The position numbers were made by a program, and so were the translations under genes. A stretch of DNA of 64,000 nt from Xanthomonas sp. SI (GTDB lineage: Bacteria > Pseudomonadota > Gammaproteobacteria > Xanthomonadales > Xanthomonadaceae), in the NCBI RefSeq assembly GCF_014236855.1, contig NZ_CP051261.1, positions 1,116,001 to 1,180,000 of the forward strand. Reading direction: 5' to 3'. Shown piece after piece: positions 14,936 to 25,686 of this stretch. Numbering within the stretch: the first letter of the stretch is position 1; each line of letters opens with the position of its first letter. The notes under the pieces were generated by a model. The model saw only the letters and a program-made list of their open reading frames with translations. It was not told the DNA's origin and ran no database searches.

Positions 14936-15004
14936 CTGTAGGAGCGGCTTCAGCCGCGACAGGTTTTCTGAGGCAGCCTGTCGCGGCTGAAGCCGCTCCT
15001 GCAG
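14936..15004. repeat. REP-like palindrome, complete copy
   Basis: Two 27-base arms (14936-14962 and 14978-15004) are inverted copies with one mismatch around a 15-base loop. The core is GGAGCGGCTTCAGCCGCGAC. Related copies are at 42526-42613 and, as a single arm, 30688-30713. It lies between the convergent ends of tkt and the DUF2894 gene. Confidence 0.85.
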
Positions 15005-15068: not shown

Positions 15069-15788
15069 TCAACCGCGCTTGCGCGGCTTGCCGCGCGTCG
15101 GCTTCTTGCCGATGGCGGCGCCGGGTTTCTGCTGGGTCGCGAGTACGTCAGCGTCTTGCATCTGCTGCAGCCACGACAGCGCGTCGACGTAGGCCAGGAA
15201 ATGCTGCAGATAGCCCGGCGATAGGGTGCGCATCAGCGCCAGCGCGCGGTGTACCAGCACACCGGAATTCAGCGGGCCGGCATCGGCAGGGGCCTGCTGC
15301 AGCGATTGCCGCAGCTGGCTGCGGCTGCGCAGCTCGGTCCACAGTCTGCGCGCATCATCGAGTGCGGGCAGTTGCTGCGCAGACTGCGGCGATATGGCGT
15401 TTGCCGCGTCGTTCGCGTTATGCGCGTTATGCGCGGCGCCGCCGGCGAACCGCTGCAGCAGTTCGCCGAGTGGGCTGCGCGCGGTCGCGCTTGTGGCCGG
15501 CGCGGTATCGGCATCGGCTACAGCGACGGCCTCGCTGTCGGTATCGATAGCGTCATGGGCATCGACGTCGGCGGTCGTCGCAGCCGACATCCTGGCCAGG
15601 TCCGCGGCATAGGCGTCGAGCAGCACGGACAGTTTCTGTTCGAGCAGGCGCCGCGCTTGGCCATGATGCCCATCGACGCGCCGCGCCAGCGCTTCGATGA
15701 AGCGGAAGCGCAGCGGATCCATGCGCTCGGCGTGCCGCTGCCGCCAGGCGCCGAGCAGTTCGCTGGCGGATGTCGCGTTATCGCGCAT
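15069..15788 (-). CDS. DUF2894 protein, last gene of the stator-like cluster
   Basis: This 239-residue, largely helical soluble protein has no signal peptide. An Ala/Asp/Thr-rich linker (about residues 68-105) separates an N-terminal helix region (LLGAWRQRHAERMDPLRFRFIEALARRV) from a C-terminal domain ending in a Lys/Arg-rich tail. It corresponds to DUF2894, which co-occurs with DUF3348, DUF802 and OmpA-like genes. The start lies 11 bases inside the end of the OmpA-like gene, so it is translationally coupled. Function unknown; the coupling suggests a cytoplasmic partner of the MotA/MotB-like pair. Confidence 0.82.
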   Translation of the reverse strand: MRDNATSASELLGAWRQRHAERMDPLRFRFIEALARRVDGHHGQARRLLEQKLSVLLDAYAADLARMSAATTADVDAHDAIDTDSEAVAVADADTAPATSATARSPLGELLQRFAGGAAHNAHNANDAANAISPQSAQQLPALDDARRLWTELRSRSQLRQSLQQAPADAGPLNSGVLVHRALALMRTLSPGYLQHFLAYVDALSWLQQMQDADVLATQQKPGAAIGKKPTRGKPRKRG

Positions 15789-16428
15789 GCGCTCTCGCGG
15801 CAGACGTGGACAGCTTCGGCAGCGGCGCCATTTCCACGCGCCGGTTGCTGGCGCGTCCGGCTTCGTCGGTGTTCGGGCTGACCGGTTGCTGCGCGCCGAA
15901 CGCGGCGGCGAACACCGCGTCGGCCGGCACGCCTTCTTCGATCAGCGCACGGGTCACGGTCAGCGCGCGCTGCGCCGACAGTTCCCAGTTGTCGGCGAAC
16001 TGGCGGTTGCTGTCGCGCACCTGGCGGTCGTCGGTGAAGCCGCTGACCATCAGGATCTCGCCGCGCGCCTTGAGGTAACCGGCCAGTGGCGCGGCCAGGC
16101 TCTTCAACACCTCGCGCCCCTCGGGTTGCAACTGATCGGAATTGAGCGCGAACAGCACGCTGCCGCGGATGCCGATGCGGCCATCGACCAGGGTCACCCG
16201 GCCCGCCGCCAGCGGCGCGGCCAGCGCCTGTTCCAGAGTCTTGCGTTGCCGCGCCTCGGCCTGCCGCTGCCGGACTTCCTCGTCCAACTTGTTCGACAGC
16301 TGCAGTTGCACGCCGATCACGCCGATCAGGATCAGCACGAACGCGCCCAGCAACACCGACATCAGGTCGCCGAACACGGCCCAGATCGGCGCGCCTGATT
16401 CGGCGTCGATTTCCAGCTCGTCGCTCAT
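15778..16428 (-). CDS. MotB/ZorB-like OmpA-family protein
   Basis: This 216-residue protein has a single N-terminal membrane helix (about 15-38) containing Asp21 in the context VFGDLMSVLLGAFVL, the position and pattern of the proton-binding Asp of MotB and ZorB stators. A coiled coil follows (about 45-75), then an OmpA peptidoglycan-binding domain (about 90-205) with NWELSAQRALTVTRAL and NRRVEM. The start overlaps the DUF802 stop as ATGA. The pair should form an ion-conducting inner-membrane complex anchored to peptidoglycan. The flagellar role is unlikely because no motility genes are near. Confidence 0.88.
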   Translation of the reverse strand: MSDELEIDAESGAPIWAVFGDLMSVLLGAFVLILIGVIGVQLQLSNKLDEEVRQRQAEARQRKTLEQALAAPLAAGRVTLVDGRIGIRGSVLFALNSDQLQPEGREVLKSLAAPLAGYLKARGEILMVSGFTDDRQVRDSNRQFADNWELSAQRALTVTRALIEEGVPADAVFAAAFGAQQPVSPNTDEAGRASNRRVEMAPLPKLSTSAARAHAR

Positions 16429-18761
16429 GCCGCTTCGGCTCCGCCGTCGGCGTGCTGGCCGGGCAGCTGGCGCAATTCCTCGATGATCTGCTTCTGCGAC
16501 AGCATGCTCAGGTCGATGACTTCGCGCGCCTGGGCTACGTAATAGGCCAGTTGCTCGTCGCTGCGCGCGAGCGACTTGTCCAGCGCCTGCTCGATGCCCT
16601 GCAGGCGCTCCAGCAGTGCCGCGTTCGATTGCCCGAACGCCTCCACCGCGCCGCCGAATGCATCACCCAGACTCGCCACCTCGGTGGCCCCGACCGCGAC
16701 CTGCGCGGCGACCGATTCGAGCTTGCCGGTCTCCGCTTCGATGTGGTCGGTGAAGCGGGTGCCGACGCGTTCGAGCAGGTCGGCCGAGGTAGTGACCAGG
16801 GCGTCCACCGCGGTGCGTTGCTCGGTGGAGGCGTGGTTCACCGCGTCGAGCAAGGTGTGCAGCGTGTCCAGCAGGCGGCTGCGCTCTTCCAGCATGGCGG
16901 TGTCGCGGACCATGCTCTCGGAGAGTTTCTGGCGCAGTTCGGCGACGACATCGGCGGCGGCCTTGGGCGCTTCCGAGGCGGTCTGCACCAGGCGCGAGAT
17001 CTCGGCGATGGTCTCGCTGGCATGCGCCTGGATCTGCGCCGCGATCGCGCCTGCGGTGCGTTCGAGGGTGTCGCAGATGTCCTCCTGGCGCTGCGCGATG
17101 CGCTCGCCGTTGCGCTCCCAGTCCGCGTTCAAGCCGGCGACCATCGTGGCGAAGGTGTCGGTCCACGTGGCCAGGCGCGCCTGGTCGCGCGCTTGCAGCG
17201 CGTCCTGCGATTGCGCGTGGGAATGCTGCATGGCCTCGACCAGCGCCGCCGCGCGCTGTTGCAGCGTTGCCGCGGCCGCGTCCAGCGCCTGCGCGTTGCG
17301 CTCGGCCAGGGCGGCGTTGACGTCCTCCTGGCGCGACAGCGCATCGCTCCAGGCCTGCTTGGCGCCATCCGCGGTGGCGTCGAGCCGTACCGAGATCGCG
17401 TCCAGCGCCTGTGCGTTACGTTCCGCCAACTGAGCGTTGATCGCTTCCTGGCGCGACAGCGCATCGCTCCAGGCCTGCTTGGCGCCATCCGCCGTGGCAT
17501 CCAGGCGCACCGAGATGGCATCCAGCGCCTGCGCGTTGCGCTCCGCCAATTGCGCGTTGATCTCTTGCTGCCGCGACAGCGCATCGTTCCAGGCCTGCTT
17601 GGCACCATCCGCAGTGGCGTCCAGGCGCGCCGACACGGCATCCAGCACGCCGTTCGAGCGCGTCGCGAAGCTGTCGCCGAAGCCTTCCAGCGCGCTGCGC
17701 AGATCCTGGACCAGCGCCTGGTTGGTATCGCGCTGGCCGGCCAGTGCGGCCTCCCACGCCTGTGCGGCGCGCGCAGCGGCGTTCTCGAAGCCGCTGGCCA
17801 GGCCGTCCAGCTGGCGTTGCACGGCCTGGCCGACGTGCTCGTGCAGCGTGGCGGTTTCGCGCGCCAGGCCGTCCAGGGTGGCCTGCATCACCGGCTGCAG
17901 CGCCGCGCCGAGCGCGCGCGCGTTCTCCGCGACGCCGGCCTGCAGCGACTGCTCCACCGCGCCGGCCAGGCGCGTGTAGGCGGCCTCGGTCCTGGCGTGG
18001 AAGGCGTCCTGGTTGCTGGCCAGGCGTTCGCCGCTGGCCGCGCCCTGTTGCTCGATGCCGGCTGCCATCGCCTGCAGCCGGTCGATCAAGGCCGGCATCA
18101 ATTCGGTCTGCCGCTGCAGCAGCTTGAACGCTTCGCTGCGCTGGAACGCCTGCGAATGGACGTGCAGGGTGGTCGCGATGGCCAGGTCGAGCGCTTGCAC
18201 CGCCTGCAGCCGCTCGCGCCGGCAAAGTGCGGCGAGCAAGCCGAGCATCGCCGAGCTGGCCACGCCGGCGATGGAGGTGCCGAACGCGAAGCCCAGGCCC
18301 TTGACCGGTGCGGCCAGCGAGTCGCGGATGGCCTGCAGGTCGGTCGCGCTTTCCAGCGCCAGGCCGGTACCGCGCAGGGTCGCCATCATGCCCAGGAAGG
18401 TGCCGAGCATGCCCAGCAGGACCAGCAGGCCGACCAGGTACGGGGTCAGCCCCGGCGCCGGCAAGGCCACGCGCTCGCCGTCGATGCGCAGGCGCACCGC
18501 GTTGCGCAGGCTCGGATCCAGGCGTTGCAGCCAGCCGCCCAGGTCGGACCGCGCCGCCTCCGCGTCGTCCACGGCATGGACCAGCGTGACCGTGGCCTGC
18601 TGGTAGCGGTACAGCTCCAGCGCGCCGGCCACGTAGCACGCGCCGATCAGCAGCGCGAAGGAGATGCCTAGCGGATTGTTGCCGAGGTAGCCCACGCCGA
18701 TCCAGCACACGGCGGCGAGGCCGGCCAGGAACACGACGGAATTGAAGAAGTTCTTGAACAT
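16425..18761 (-). CDS. DUF802 protein: MotA/ExbB/ZorA-like channel with long coiled-coil tail
   Basis: This 778-residue protein has four membrane helices in its first quarter (about 7-27, 31-52, 105-127, 155-180). The last two carry LGMLGTFLGMMATLRG and GLGFAFGTSIAGVASSAMLGLL, the MotA/TolQ/ExbB pattern with pore-lining Thr (Thr121, Thr162). The remaining ~590 residues are a predicted cytoplasmic coiled coil rich in Ala/Gln/Glu/Arg. They include three 40-residue repeats (about 375-494). The layout, four helices plus a very long tail next to an OmpA/MotB-like partner, matches ZorA. It is co-translated with the OmpA-like gene. Confidence 0.87.
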   Translation of the reverse strand: MFKNFFNSVVFLAGLAAVCWIGVGYLGNNPLGISFALLIGACYVAGALELYRYQQATVTLVHAVDDAEAARSDLGGWLQRLDPSLRNAVRLRIDGERVALPAPGLTPYLVGLLVLLGMLGTFLGMMATLRGTGLALESATDLQAIRDSLAAPVKGLGFAFGTSIAGVASSAMLGLLAALCRRERLQAVQALDLAIATTLHVHSQAFQRSEAFKLLQRQTELMPALIDRLQAMAAGIEQQGAASGERLASNQDAFHARTEAAYTRLAGAVEQSLQAGVAENARALGAALQPVMQATLDGLARETATLHEHVGQAVQRQLDGLASGFENAAARAAQAWEAALAGQRDTNQALVQDLRSALEGFGDSFATRSNGVLDAVSARLDATADGAKQAWNDALSRQQEINAQLAERNAQALDAISVRLDATADGAKQAWSDALSRQEAINAQLAERNAQALDAISVRLDATADGAKQAWSDALSRQEDVNAALAERNAQALDAAAATLQQRAAALVEAMQHSHAQSQDALQARDQARLATWTDTFATMVAGLNADWERNGERIAQRQEDICDTLERTAGAIAAQIQAHASETIAEISRLVQTASEAPKAAADVVAELRQKLSESMVRDTAMLEERSRLLDTLHTLLDAVNHASTEQRTAVDALVTTSADLLERVGTRFTDHIEAETGKLESVAAQVAVGATEVASLGDAFGGAVEAFGQSNAALLERLQGIEQALDKSLARSDEQLAYYVAQAREVIDLSMLSQKQIIEELRQLPGQHADGGAEAA
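17281..17640 (-). repeat. Three 120-bp in-frame tandem repeats in the DUF802 gene
   Basis: Units 17281-17400, 17401-17520 and 17521-17640 are diverged copies encoding a 40-residue block around ARLDATADGAKQAWNDALSR followed by QLAERNAQALDA. The exact period keeps reading frame and coiled-coil phase. Copies differ mainly at third positions, so the duplication is not recent. Confidence 0.9.
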
Positions 18762-18771
18762 GATGTCTCGG

Positions 18772-19503
18772 TCAGCGGGGGCGCAGCGCTGCGAGCAGCG
18801 CGTCGATGGGATGGAAGCGGACGTCCAGCTCGGCGCGCAGCACGTTGCGCATGTCCTGGCGGAACACGTCCAGCCAGGCGTTGGCGGTCGGTGCCTGAGC
18901 GGTGTCCGCCGTGTGCGTATCGGCCGCCGCGGCGGGCTCGGTGTCGCGCAGGCGTTCGAAATGCTGTTGCAGCAGCGCCGGCACGGCCGCCAGCAGGGTC
19001 TGTTCGCGCGGACTCAGGGTCAGCTCCATGACCGCATCCACGTCCGCCAGCCGCGCCATGTCGGCCGACGTGCGCGCCAGTGTGTCGCGCAGCTGGCCAC
19101 GCAGGCGGCCGGTCGCGGTCAGCATCGAGCGCTGCAGCGCCAGGTAGCGCTGGCGGAACGGCGCATAGTCGAGCGGCGCGTTCGCGTCGGCGGCGTGGCC
19201 AGGCCGGGGGCCTTGCTTGCCGGCGTCCGCGGCGGTGTCGCTGGAAATCGCCTCCTCCAGCGCGCTGCGCACGCGCGCGCACTCGTGTGCGTCGACGCCC
19301 TCGAACGGCGCGTCGGCGTCGATGGCGGTCGGCCTGCCGTCCAGCGCCCTGGACACGGCCACGGCACGCGTCCAGTCGATCCATTGGCCGAGCCGGTCGG
19401 CCAGCGCGGGGCTGGACGGCGCGATGTCGGCGTCGGTGAGACGTGCGAGGAGGCGAATGAACGCCGGGCCCGGGACAGGCGGCCGTGGAAGAGCTTTCGC
19501 CAT
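18772..19503 (-). CDS. DUF3348 protein, first gene of the stator-like cluster
   Basis: This 243-residue cytoplasmic helical protein matches DUF3348: FIRLLARLTDADIAPSSPALADRLGQWIDWTRAVAVSRAL at the N-terminus, a YAPFRQRYLALQRSM helix in the middle and FRQDMRNVLRAELDVRFHPIDALLAALRPR at the end. It lies 10 bases upstream of the DUF802 gene and starts the DUF3348-DUF802-OmpA-DUF2894 operon. Function unknown; constant association with the channel pair implies a cytoplasmic subunit or regulator. Confidence 0.85.
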   Translation of the reverse strand: MAKALPRPPVPGPAFIRLLARLTDADIAPSSPALADRLGQWIDWTRAVAVSRALDGRPTAIDADAPFEGVDAHECARVRSALEEAISSDTAADAGKQGPRPGHAADANAPLDYAPFRQRYLALQRSMLTATGRLRGQLRDTLARTSADMARLADVDAVMELTLSPREQTLLAAVPALLQQHFERLRDTEPAAAADTHTADTAQAPTANAWLDVFRQDMRNVLRAELDVRFHPIDALLAALRPR

Positions 19504-19807: not shown

Positions 19808-20518
19808 CTACAACCGCTGCTCGCCGCGCAGCAGCGGATACGGATTGAGCGATTCGCCCTTCCACCACTGCTTTTCCGGGCCCAGCCGGTGGATCTCGAA
19901 ATGCAGGTGCGGCGCGCCGGGATCGGCATTGCCGGTGCTGCCGACATAGCCGAGCACCTGGCCGCGGCGGATCGTCTGTTTCTCCGCCAGTCCATCCGCG
20001 TAGCGCTGCAGGTGCGCGTAATAGTAGGCGTAGCGGCCGCTGGGTTCGAACTGGTACACGGTGAGGCCGCCGCGTTCGCTGTCGAACAGCTTCTCCACGC
20101 TGCCGTCGGCCACCGCCAGCACCGGCGTGCCGGCCGGCGCCAGGATGTCGATCGCGTCGTGGCGCCGGCCCTGGCTGCGCGCGTCGGTGAAGGTGTCCTG
20201 CAGCTGGTCGCGGCGCACGCCTTGTACCGGGATCAGTAGGTCATCGGATGCGTTCGCCGGCGCTGCCGCGGGGGCCTCTACGGCCGCGACAGGCTGCTCC
20301 GCCGGTGTGGCGTCCATCGCCACGGGGGCAGGCACCAGGGTAAGCGCCTCCCGCTGCGCCGGCGCCGTTGCCGGCGCTGCGGCGGGCGACATCGCCGGCG
20401 TGGCCGCCGCATCGTCGGCATGGGCAGCGCTGGGGCGCACCTGCACGCCGGCGCGCAGCACCCAGTAGCCGAGCGCTACCGCCATCACCAGCGCCGCCAG
20501 GCTGAGCAGGGTCTTCAT
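19808..20518 (-). CDS. M23-family peptidoglycan endopeptidase (LytM domain)
   Basis: This 236-residue exported metallopeptidase has an N-terminal membrane or signal segment (LLSLAALVMAVALGYWVLRAG), an Ala/Pro-rich linker (about 30-90) and an M23 domain (about 110-225). The zinc ligands are visible as HDAID (HxxxD) and PHLHFEIH (HxH). M23 enzymes cut peptidoglycan cross-links, or act as regulators if inactive; the ligands here look intact. It starts 4 bases after the L,D-transpeptidase stop, so the two wall enzymes are co-transcribed. Confidence 0.92.
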   Translation of the reverse strand: MKTLLSLAALVMAVALGYWVLRAGVQVRPSAAHADDAAATPAMSPAAAPATAPAQREALTLVPAPVAMDATPAEQPVAAVEAPAAAPANASDDLLIPVQGVRRDQLQDTFTDARSQGRRHDAIDILAPAGTPVLAVADGSVEKLFDSERGGLTVYQFEPSGRYAYYYAHLQRYADGLAEKQTIRRGQVLGYVGSTGNADPGAPHLHFEIHRLGPEKQWWKGESLNPYPLLRGEQRL

Positions 20519-20522
20519 CCGC

Positions 20523-21482
20523 TCACTCCTGCATCGTCACCGGCACCGATGCGTTCACCGCAGCGGCCACGGTCAGCGCATCCCAGTTGGTCAGGCGCAC
20601 GCAGCCATGCGATTGCGCCTTGCCGACCCGCGCCGGATCCGGCGTGCCATGCAGGCCGTAGTGGTCCTTGGACAGATCGATCCACACCTCGCCGACCGGA
20701 TTGTTCGGGCCTGCGGCCAGTGTGGCCTTCTTGTCGGACTTGTCGGCGTCCCAGAACAGCTTGGGGTTGTAGTGGAAGGTCGGCTGCCGCACCACGCCCT
20801 TGATCTTCCAATCGCCGATCGGCAGCGGGTCGTGCTCGCTGCCGGTGGAGGCGGGAAACTGGGCCAGAATCGCGCCGCCGGCGTCGAGCAGGCGCACAGT
20901 GGAGTCGGACTTGTCGACTACCAGCTTGGCCGCCTTCGGCAGCGCCGCGGTGCCGAGCACGTTCGGCACCTGCACGCTGGCGCCGGCCTGGCTGAAATCG
21001 ACCGATGGGTTGAGCGCACGCAACAGCGCAGGCGCGGCGTGGAAGCGTTCGCCCAGGCGCTCTTCCACCGACTCGTAGCCCAGCGCCGGCAGCTTGGCCT
21101 TCTCCGCGGTGTCCTCGGGAATCTTGGGGAACGGGCCGGCGACGTCCTCGGCGGTGAGCGTGTAGGCGATCAGCGCGGGCGCGGCGTCCTGCACCAGCGC
21201 CTGCCAGGTGGCGTCGTCGAGTTCGCCGTTTGCGGTCAGCCCGCGCGCCTGCTGGAAGCCGGAGACGGCGCGGCGCTGGTTGGAGCCTGGCTGGCCGTCG
21301 ATCTCGCCCGGGGAGAAGTGCGCGCGGTCCAGCAGCACTTGCGCGTGCAGCGGCGAACGCTCGCCGCTGTCCGGGGCTGCGCTGGAGGCCGCGGCCTTGG
21401 CGGGCGGTTGCGCCGACGCGTTGCCGACTGCGCTTGCGAACAGCACGGCAAGGCAGGCGAGTGGAAGCGATAGGCGGGACAT
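20523..21482 (-). CDS. L,D-transpeptidase (YkuD) with peptidoglycan-binding domain
   Basis: This 319-residue exported enzyme forms 3-3 peptidoglycan cross-links or attaches proteins to the wall. The signal peptide is [27 protein letters not shown]_binding_1-like repeat follows ([27 protein letters not shown]), then the YkuD catalytic domain with HGTPDP...SHGCVRL. I prefer the ATG at 21482, which has GGAG six bases upstream; an ATG five codons earlier is possible. It is transcribed with the M23 peptidase directly downstream. Confidence 0.93.
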
Positions 21483-21600
21483 CGGCGACTCCGGCATGAA
21501 TTCCCGCCACCATGCCTAAGCGCCGCGACTAGCCAGCGTGAAATGACTGGCTGTCCGCTGACCGGAGCGCGGCCGGCACTGCCGGGCCTCGCATCCGTCG

Positions 21601-24516: not shown

Positions 24517-25686
24517 TCAATGCGTCAAATCGGTGCCGTCGCAGCGTGCGTTCGGGAATTGCGGATTGCAGCGCGCGGCGGCGTCGCCATCGAAACGCAC
24601 CACGTAGCCGGAAGCGGCCGCTTCGTGATCGGGAAAATCGGTGCTGAGCAATTGCGCGCCGCTGGCGAGCATGGCGTCGCGGCGCGTGGTGTCGTTGTTT
24701 GCCGGCTCTTTCAGGTCCGCATCGGTGCGGGTACGCACCAGATATCCCGCTTTCACCAGGCGCGCGATCTCTTCCGCGCTGCCGTCGTTGCGCTCGGTGA
24801 AGGCGGCATCGTCTTCGCCGGGAATGGCATTGGTGAAGCACACGCGGCCGCGCAGCGACGCATGGTCGGGCAAGTAGTGCCGGCCCACCGAATGCTGGTC
24901 GAGCAGGAACACGATCTTGCCGCGCGCCTCGTCCAGGGATGGCCAGCCGTGTTCGAGGATCGCGGCATTGAGCGTGGCTGCGCTGCCGCGCACCTGGTCG
25001 GGACTCAGGTACTCGCCGCGTCGGAACACCGAGCGGATTTCCGCATCCAGCGCGTCCATCGCCTTGGCATCGAAGGGTTCGGGCTGCACGGTCGGGAACG
25101 CCAGCTGCAACGGCGACTCCTCGGTTTCCAGCAGCACGAATATCGGCAGGTGGCGCGGATGCCGCTTGGACCACGCGCGCACTTCCCGCAGGCAGGCGAC
25201 CAGCGGTTGGCAGGTACTGCGCTGGTCAAGATCCTGCACATGCATGACCTTGAATCCAGGCTTCTCCATCACCCCGGGCGCGGCGTGGGCCGGCGCCGGC
25301 GGCAGTCCGGCCTTGGCGATCTGCTCGGCGATCGCCGGATGCGCATAGCGGCCGCCCTTGGCGTCGGCATAGATGTCCAGTTCGATCTGCCTGACGCCGT
25401 CGTCGAACTGCTGCGTCAGCGGCGGATGGCGGTAGTCCAGCTTGGCGAACACCGCCGGATTGGTTTGCTTCCACAGTGCCGCTTCGCTGGGCGCAAAACC
25501 GGCGTGGTAGCTGTTGTGGCTGCCGATGTACTGCAGTTCGTTGAGCCGCGGCGCGGCATGCAATGCGAGCGGGACGATCGTCAACAGGCCGAGCAGGGCG
25601 CACCGGATCAGGTGCAGGCGCGCGGCAGGCGGTAGCGTGGGGCAGGCCGTTTCCAGCGCCGGGGATACAGGTGAACAGGGGCGCAT
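24517..25686 (-). CDS. Ca2+-dependent phosphoinositide phospholipase C-like protein, exported
   Basis: This protein of up to 389 residues has a signal peptide after a longer-than-usual N-terminus (LHLIRCALLGLLTIVPLALHA). The PI-PLC TIM-barrel family (PF16670 type) is recognised by IGSHNSYHAG, QFDDGVRQIELDIYAD, FKVMHVQDLDQRSTC and LPIFVLLETEE. Such enzymes hydrolyse phosphoinositide-type phosphodiesters. No good ribosome site precedes the ATG at 25686, so the true start may be a later non-ATG codon. It precedes the TonB receptor on the same strand (136-base gap), suggesting joint nutrient scavenging. Confidence 0.85.
   Translation of the reverse strand: MRPCSPVSPALETACPTLPPAARLHLIRCALLGLLTIVPLALHAAPRLNELQYIGSHNSYHAGFAPSEAALWKQTNPAVFAKLDYRHPPLTQQFDDGVRQIELDIYADAKGGRYAHPAIAEQIAKAGLPPAPAHAAPGVMEKPGFKVMHVQDLDQRSTCQPLVACLREVRAWSKRHPRHLPIFVLLETEESPLQLAFPTVQPEPFDAKAMDALDAEIRSVFRRGEYLSPDQVRGSAATLNAAILEHGWPSLDEARGKIVFLLDQHSVGRHYLPDHASLRGRVCFTNAIPGEDDAAFTERNDGSAEEIARLVKAGYLVRTRTDADLKEPANNDTTRRDAMLASGAQLLSTDFPDHEAAASGYVVRFDGDAAARCNPQFPNARCDGTDLTH

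Follow-up and report, generated by a model that had tools for sequence, protein, structure and literature searches.

Which machine is encoded by a gene pair that resembles the ZorAB and MotAB stators and is flanked by genes of the DUF3348 and DUF2894 families? This question is raised by a locus in a 64,000-nucleotide stretch (hereafter the window) of the genome of Xanthomonas sp. SI, a single contig of 5,246,417 bases; the G+C content of the window is 0.69. An initial annotation had read the four genes as an ion-driven stator cluster, possibly of a distinct and as yet unnamed class. We find that the operon is real, complete and typical of type III Zorya, a class that is already known.

A type III Zorya operon

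The operon spans positions 15069-19503 of the minus strand, in the order zorG-zorA-zorB-zorF:

18772-19503, minus strand: zorG (DUF3348), first gene of the operon, 243 aa; PF11828, E 4.7e-87; PADLOC ZorG3, 296 bits
16425-18761, minus strand: zorA (type III ZorA, DUF802 repeats), 778 aa; PADLOC ZorA3, 1159 bits; PF05650, E 2.9e-36
15778-16428, minus strand: zorB (type III ZorB), 216 aa; PADLOC ZorB3, 382 bits; Pfam OmpA, E 3.5e-19
15069-15788, minus strand: zorF (DUF2894), last gene of the operon, 239 aa; PF11445, E 4.8e-61; PADLOC ZorF3, 240 bits

All four Pfam E-values lie far outside chance. The gene labels follow PADLOC-DB, in which DUF2894 is ZorF and DUF3348 is ZorG; the texts of PMC8565338 and PMC11890865 reverse them (DUF3348 as ZorF, DUF2894 as ZorG). 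A gap of 10 bases separates zorG from zorA, while zorA and zorB overlap by 4 bases (ATGA) and zorB and zorF by 11, and the ORF coordinates and Pfam matches confirm the minus-strand layout of four frames, with both overlaps, that the initial annotation had described. Hydropathy analysis placed four membrane segments in ZorA (approximately residues 9-27, 30-48, 98-127 and 158-180) with about 596 residues beyond residue 182, in agreement with the four helices and tail of ~590 residues claimed for the DUF802 protein. ZorB was found to have a single membrane segment (approximately residues 22-48) in addition to its OmpA-like peptidoglycan domain, and hydropathy and the ZorB alignment together bear out an OmpA protein with one helix and with Asp21 in the motif FGDLMS. 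No membrane segments were found in ZorF or ZorG by hydropathy.

With regard to class, Payne et al. (2021) reported 6,401 pairs (printed as zorBC) flanked by DUF3348 and DUF2894 and named the arrangement Zorya type III (PMC8565338). The window locus has the same four proteins in the same order and adjacency, and nothing sets it apart: type III ZorA and ZorB are flanked by DUF3348 and DUF2894 genes on one strand, and the pair carries the ion-site Asp and the pore Thr/Ser residues. Since all four proteins match type III models and the type was named in 2021, the operon does not represent a new stator class. Homology, gene content and gene order show the four-gene unit to be a type III Zorya operon, with a predicted anti-phage role. 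It resembles types I and II in having homologues of ZorA and ZorB, the ion-site Asp, the OmpA-like wall domain and a long cytoplasmic tail; however, type I/II models in PADLOC-DB score at most 66 bits against the operon proteins, whereas type III models fit all four. Unlike type I, the operon lacks zorC and zorD, neither of which was found at the locus among neighbouring genes or in a comparison of recurrent genes over 69 loci, as the initial annotation had maintained, and unlike type II it has no ZorE gene beside it. ZorE was likewise absent from all 20 genomes examined from the window's genus, as judged by a single ZorE model (PDLC00645).

Conservation of the motor residues

The residues through which an ion motor of this kind would operate were compared across aligned relatives:

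16366-16368, minus strand: codon of ZorB Asp21, the presumed ion site (FGDLMS); Asp in 80 of 82 aligned rows
18273-18278, minus strand: codons of ZorA Thr162 and Ser163 (GTSIAG); Thr162 in 80 of 83 rows, Ser163 in 81 of 83
18378-18380, minus strand: codon of ZorA Thr128; Thr in 79 of 83 rows

The two rows with a gap at Asp21 (L118 and L125) reflect starts that were called too late, as the upstream codons read FGDLM. Thr162 and Ser163 are missing from two loci cut by contig ends (L117 and L125), and Thr162 also from L122; at Thr128 two loci carry Met (L099 and L108), and the same two cut loci have Ser (L117) and a gap (L125). Loss of Asp21 or of the pore Thr residues across homologues, which had been named as an outcome that would overturn the stator reading, was looked for, and the residues are kept. 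The ZorAB/MotAB-like reading therefore stands, supported by the conserved ion-site Asp and Thr/Ser residues, the long cytoplasmic tail and the presence of two soluble partners.

Seven further ZorB residues are invariant in the 82 rows (D133, N147, R154, R192, N195, R196 and R197), and T132 is Thr in 75 of them. Position 131 is Phe in 81 of the 82 rows and Tyr in the other. By our own mapping through the G-x-T-D motif, this position corresponds to a His of types I and II whose mutation is reported to have disrupted both wall binding and defence (PMC11890865), so wall binding may differ in type III.

ZorA tails vary in length by units close to whole helical turns

Components of types I and II are described as keeping much the same size within each type (PMC11890865), whereas the length of type III ZorA varies widely, from 530 to 1015 residues across the 79 rows kept after omission of one broken locus (L063), the two loci cut by contig ends, and a divergent locus with a ZorA of 1204 aa (L132). 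In the alignment of these rows the repeat-expanded middle (residues 401-480 of the window ZorA) is mostly gapped, and both ends are nearly gap-free. Within the window's genus the 19 intact ZorA proteins, that of the window included, are exactly 698, 738, 778 or 818 residues long (5, 1, 5 and 8 proteins, respectively); that is, 698 residues plus zero to three units of 40. Two features of the tail in the window are relevant here:

17281-17646, minus strand: tandem repeat array of 120-bp (40-residue) units in the ZorA tail; TRF period 120, 3.0 copies, 85% matches, no indels; protein identity 0.98 at offset 40
16482-16601, minus strand: ZorA residues 721-760, the conserved tail tip; mean conservation 0.81-0.87 over 79 rows

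The conservation of the tip resembles that of the channel region (0.80-0.90 over the same 79 rows).

Hydrophobic periodicity in the tails peaks at 3.64 residues (921 windows), which is distinct from the 3.5 residues of a heptad. Repeats with an identity of at least 0.70 occur in different lineages with periods of 40, 51, 62, 69, 80, 84, 87, 94 and 113 residues, and when these nine periods were compared with multiples of 3.64, in a test devised after the periods had been seen, their mean cosine was 0.893, a value that 50,000 random sets drawn from 38-115 never reached. Lowering the identity threshold to 0.55 gave 13 periods and a mean cosine of 0.865 (0 of 20,000 random sets). Two of the 13, 80 and 102, are possibly the periods 40 and 51 taken twice, and without them the value was 0.843 (0 of 20,000). 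When the helical period was left free and scanned with the 13 repeat periods, the fit again peaked at 3.64, which none of 2,000 random sets equalled. The fit is not uniform, as periods 94, 54, 55 and 87 deviate from a whole turn by 36 to 63 degrees (63 for 94 and 36 for 87).

Repeat lengths near whole helical turns suggest a shaft of free length and fixed angular register. Any functional continuous coiled coil keeps register, so the periods support a continuous shaft and leave rotation unproven. Phase variation of the tail within a species was looked for and not seen: ZorA frames did not differ in length between records of one species (3 of 3 for P. caribensis, 2 of 2 for C. metallidurans and 2 of 2 for P. 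largidicola plasmids). A literature search, in which subscription papers were thinly covered, found no published account of such a Zorya tail, and we regard the result as a modest new lead. The existence of tails that differ in length but share a tip and, apparently, a register would provide a handle on how ZorAB signals to its soluble partners, because it would allow length and phase to be altered one at a time in the E. coli system already published.

No fifth gene recurs beside the operon

The neighbours of the operon encode a transketolase, an SDF symporter, M23 and YkuD proteins, a TonB receptor and a PI-PLC. Two of these had been pointed out as peptidoglycan enzymes lying just upstream:

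19808-20518: M23 gene, upstream of zorG
20523-21497: YkuD/PG_binding_1 (LDT) gene, upstream of zorG

Both genes are real, but they are not members of the unit, the link being confined to part of the genus: near-full-length M23 and LDT genes lie by zorG in 7 of the 19 other same-genus loci and in none of 20 loci outside the genus. Among the remaining same-genus loci, L057 and L063 retain an M23 fragment only, and L051 stops at a contig edge and is uninformative. A nuclease, helicase or other fifth partner was also rejected, as no cluster of similar ORFs wholly outside the operon occurs in more than 6 of 69 loci, and those found vary in distance and strand; the larger clusters are the four genes themselves and frames overlapping them. 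Given that no fifth gene recurs and that the single ZorE model finds nothing in the 20 genus genomes, type III seems to run without a nuclease of its own. The lack of a recurrent fifth gene is, together with the range of tail lengths with repeats near whole turns and the inheritance described below, what these data add to the published picture of type III.

ZorF and ZorG as candidate adaptors at the tip of a proposed motor-driven shaft

ZorG is predicted to be all-helical (pLDDT 86.2, pTM 0.82), and ZorF is predicted, at lower confidence, to be helical as well (pLDDT 76.3, pTM 0.43). Fold searches gave no significant match for either protein, and family searches likewise offered no clue. Profile comparison argued against the two being paralogues (probability 0.6%). 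The initial annotation had cast the two as cytoplasmic effectors or sensors, which they may be. As the unit has no nuclease or helicase gene, ZorF and ZorG most likely serve as an adaptor, through which another factor is recruited or blocked, or as a channel gate. Residues 721-760 of ZorA are their proposed docking site.

According to Mariano et al. (2025; PMC11890865), types I and II form complexes of five ZorA and two ZorB and cannot defend without the ion-site Asp, the wall-binding domain or the ZorA tail. The explanation that we favour overall, and that we consider probable, is that the window encodes a type III Zorya operon whose products form a 5:2 ion motor with a tail shaft that works ZorF and ZorG at its tip. 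Five ZorA and two ZorB would assemble in the inner membrane as an ion motor, like the solved complexes of types I and II. Damage to or deformation of peptidoglycan at the site of phage entry would lead the OmpA domain of ZorB to grip the wall, and ion flow past Asp21 and the ring of ZorA Thr/Ser residues would turn ZorA around ZorB. The five ZorA tails would make up one long helical shaft, variable in length but with its angular register kept, which would transmit motion to the conserved tip; there the soluble, helical ZorG and ZorF could dock, to be activated or concentrated where the phage enters. This model builds on what is established here: the identity and gene content of the operon, the conservation of its motor residues, the anatomy of the tail and the mode of inheritance. 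Its 5:2 assembly, wall trigger and ion-driven action would carry over by analogy from types I and II, and the tip docking and the roles of ZorF and ZorG are ones that we infer.

A more specific form of the model concerns the signal itself. If a nuclease-free type III motor has a ZorA shaft that changes its repeats in whole turns only, then the conserved tip would always present itself at a set orientation for a ZorF/ZorG adaptor, and the signal would be rotational or torsional rather than a matter of reach. This we propose tentatively, with clearly less than an even chance of being right.

The main rival to the reading of ZorF and ZorG as adaptors at the tip is already in print, in that Payne et al. 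propose that ZorF and ZorG regulate ZorAB and refer to the idea of a proton channel in Zorya (PMC8565338). On this account the two proteins would keep the ZorAB channel shut and open it upon infection, loss of the ion gradient would stop the phage, and the tail would be a lever that holds them. That the unit has neither nuclease nor helicase also speaks for such a leak. However, types I and II are described as acting through nuclease-type partners gathered by ZorAB (PMC11890865), and neither a long shaft that keeps its register nor a tip conserved like the channel would be needed for a leak. We judge an ion leak rather unlikely.

The operon is core and vertically inherited in its genus

Type III Zorya is reported to be common in Xanthomonas, Stenotrophomonas, Burkholderia, Ralstonia and Paraburkholderia (PMC11890865), and relatives of the operon were found here in Stenotrophomonas, Lysobacter and Luteimonas, among others. 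DUF3348 occurs as one copy in each of 20 genomes of the window's genus; in the wider samples it was found in 42 of 200 genomes of the order and 7 of 274 of the class, and is thus missing from 158 and 267, respectively. DUF2894 was found in the same 42 genomes of the order and DUF802 in 38 of the 42, with genomes matched by eye; the DUF2894 model also matched 1 of 14 control genomes, and in one member of the order (G209) a stop codon lies within the DUF2894 match.

Gene order is stable. In 39 retrieved loci zorG, zorA and zorF follow the order G-A-B-F, and zorB is present in 38; the thirty-ninth, a same-genus locus (L063, 10403-12001), carries a natural deletion from approximately residue 427 of ZorA to residue 139 of ZorF, which removes zorB and leaves a fused frame of 533 residues made of the 5' part of zorA and the 3' part of zorF. 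The system can therefore be lost within the genus. A second set of 43 named loci (Xanthomonadales, Burkholderiales, Marinobacter and others), drawn from at least 80 relatives after exclusion of 37 loci with a ZorB identity of 46% or less (L135-L171), keeps the order wherever the genes were found (zorG in 40, zorA in 43, zorB in 43 and zorF in 42); two of its records, L085 and L094, are probably one record counted twice. Three of the four missing genes fall at contig ends (L117, L125 and L133), and the fourth belongs to the divergent L132 (4387-9406), where ZorB is 48% identical, ZorF gives a weak match (50 bits) and ZorG was not found. L132 is possibly an outlying branch of type III.

With regard to inheritance, the transketolase gene adjoins the operon in the window and in 18 of the 19 further loci of the genus, 19 of 20 in all, and in none of 20 loci outside the genus. 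Over 18 loci, protein distances correlate with those of transketolase, with r values of 0.91 for ZorG, 0.93 for ZorA (compared by its two ends), 0.90 for ZorB and 0.79 for ZorF. Presence in 20 of 20 genomes, a fixed transketolase neighbour and correlated distances together establish that the operon is core and vertically inherited in the window's genus, with one naturally broken copy. The lone exception to the transketolase linkage is L066, where the operon lies apart from transketolase and all other compared window neighbours; the locus has therefore moved or been replaced there. No copies were found in 50,697 phage records at an E-value of 1e-10, and no tRNA genes in the window. Among 72,556 plasmid records 27 match, from Betaproteobacteria, and 20 of the 27 are typed as non-mobilizable.

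Defence genes are usually patchy in distribution, unlike this core and vertically inherited locus, whose inheritance bears on whether type III Zorya is defence only. The operon could be a housekeeping envelope machine in this genus, with phage protection in E. coli a side effect of an ion motor that grips the wall. The single copy in every genome of the genus, the constant position by transketolase with distances that track it, and the absence of copies from the phage records are all consistent with such a role, as is the report that, of the Zorya III genes of B. cenocepacia, no more than the first one or two shifted in expression during infection (PMC12584637). However, the genes are missing from most genomes of the order and class, and a deletion breaks the operon in one member of the genus itself. 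Moreover, type III phage protection has been published: the system of Stenotrophomonas nitritireducens DSM 12575 reduced plaquing of at least one phage in E. coli and let E. coli cultures survive phage PVP-SE1 at low multiplicity (PMC8565338). Core defence systems are also known, among them type III Zorya in R. solanacearum, a highly conserved system reported in at least 90% of the species' genomes (PMC13064858). We consider a housekeeping role distinctly improbable, and defence the better reading. The protection in print is that of the S. nitritireducens system only, and by analogy the window locus is a predicted defence locus.

A stator for flagellar, gliding or other motility shares with the operon the design of an ion-driven A/B pair, as found in MotAB and other 5:2 ion motors, with MotA/ExbB-like motifs in ZorA and a ZorB periplasmic peptidoglycan domain that matches MotB-type structures (3khn, 60.7 bits), but it can be dismissed as very improbable, since MotB, MotD and MotS NCBIfam models reach only 45-90 bits against cut-offs of 250-312 (among the best 25 of 42 families), no solved structure matches ZorA at an E-value of 1, type III Zorya models score far higher, and, unlike MotAB, the operon has a long repeat-bearing tail and two dedicated soluble partners, DUF3348 and DUF2894.

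Other features of the flanking sequence

A promoter scan returned no sites, and a terminator scan found 2 against 2.8 expected. Between transketolase and zorF, positions 14938-14960 hold one copy of a 23-base palindrome-arm sequence. The exact 23-mer has 441 copies in the genome (215 forward and 226 reverse), and its reversed control has none, which marks it as a dispersed repeat family. Further away, at 24517-25686, a gene of the Ca2+-dependent phosphoinositide phospholipase C family (PF16670, E 7.7e-133) adjoins the TonB-dependent receptor gene.
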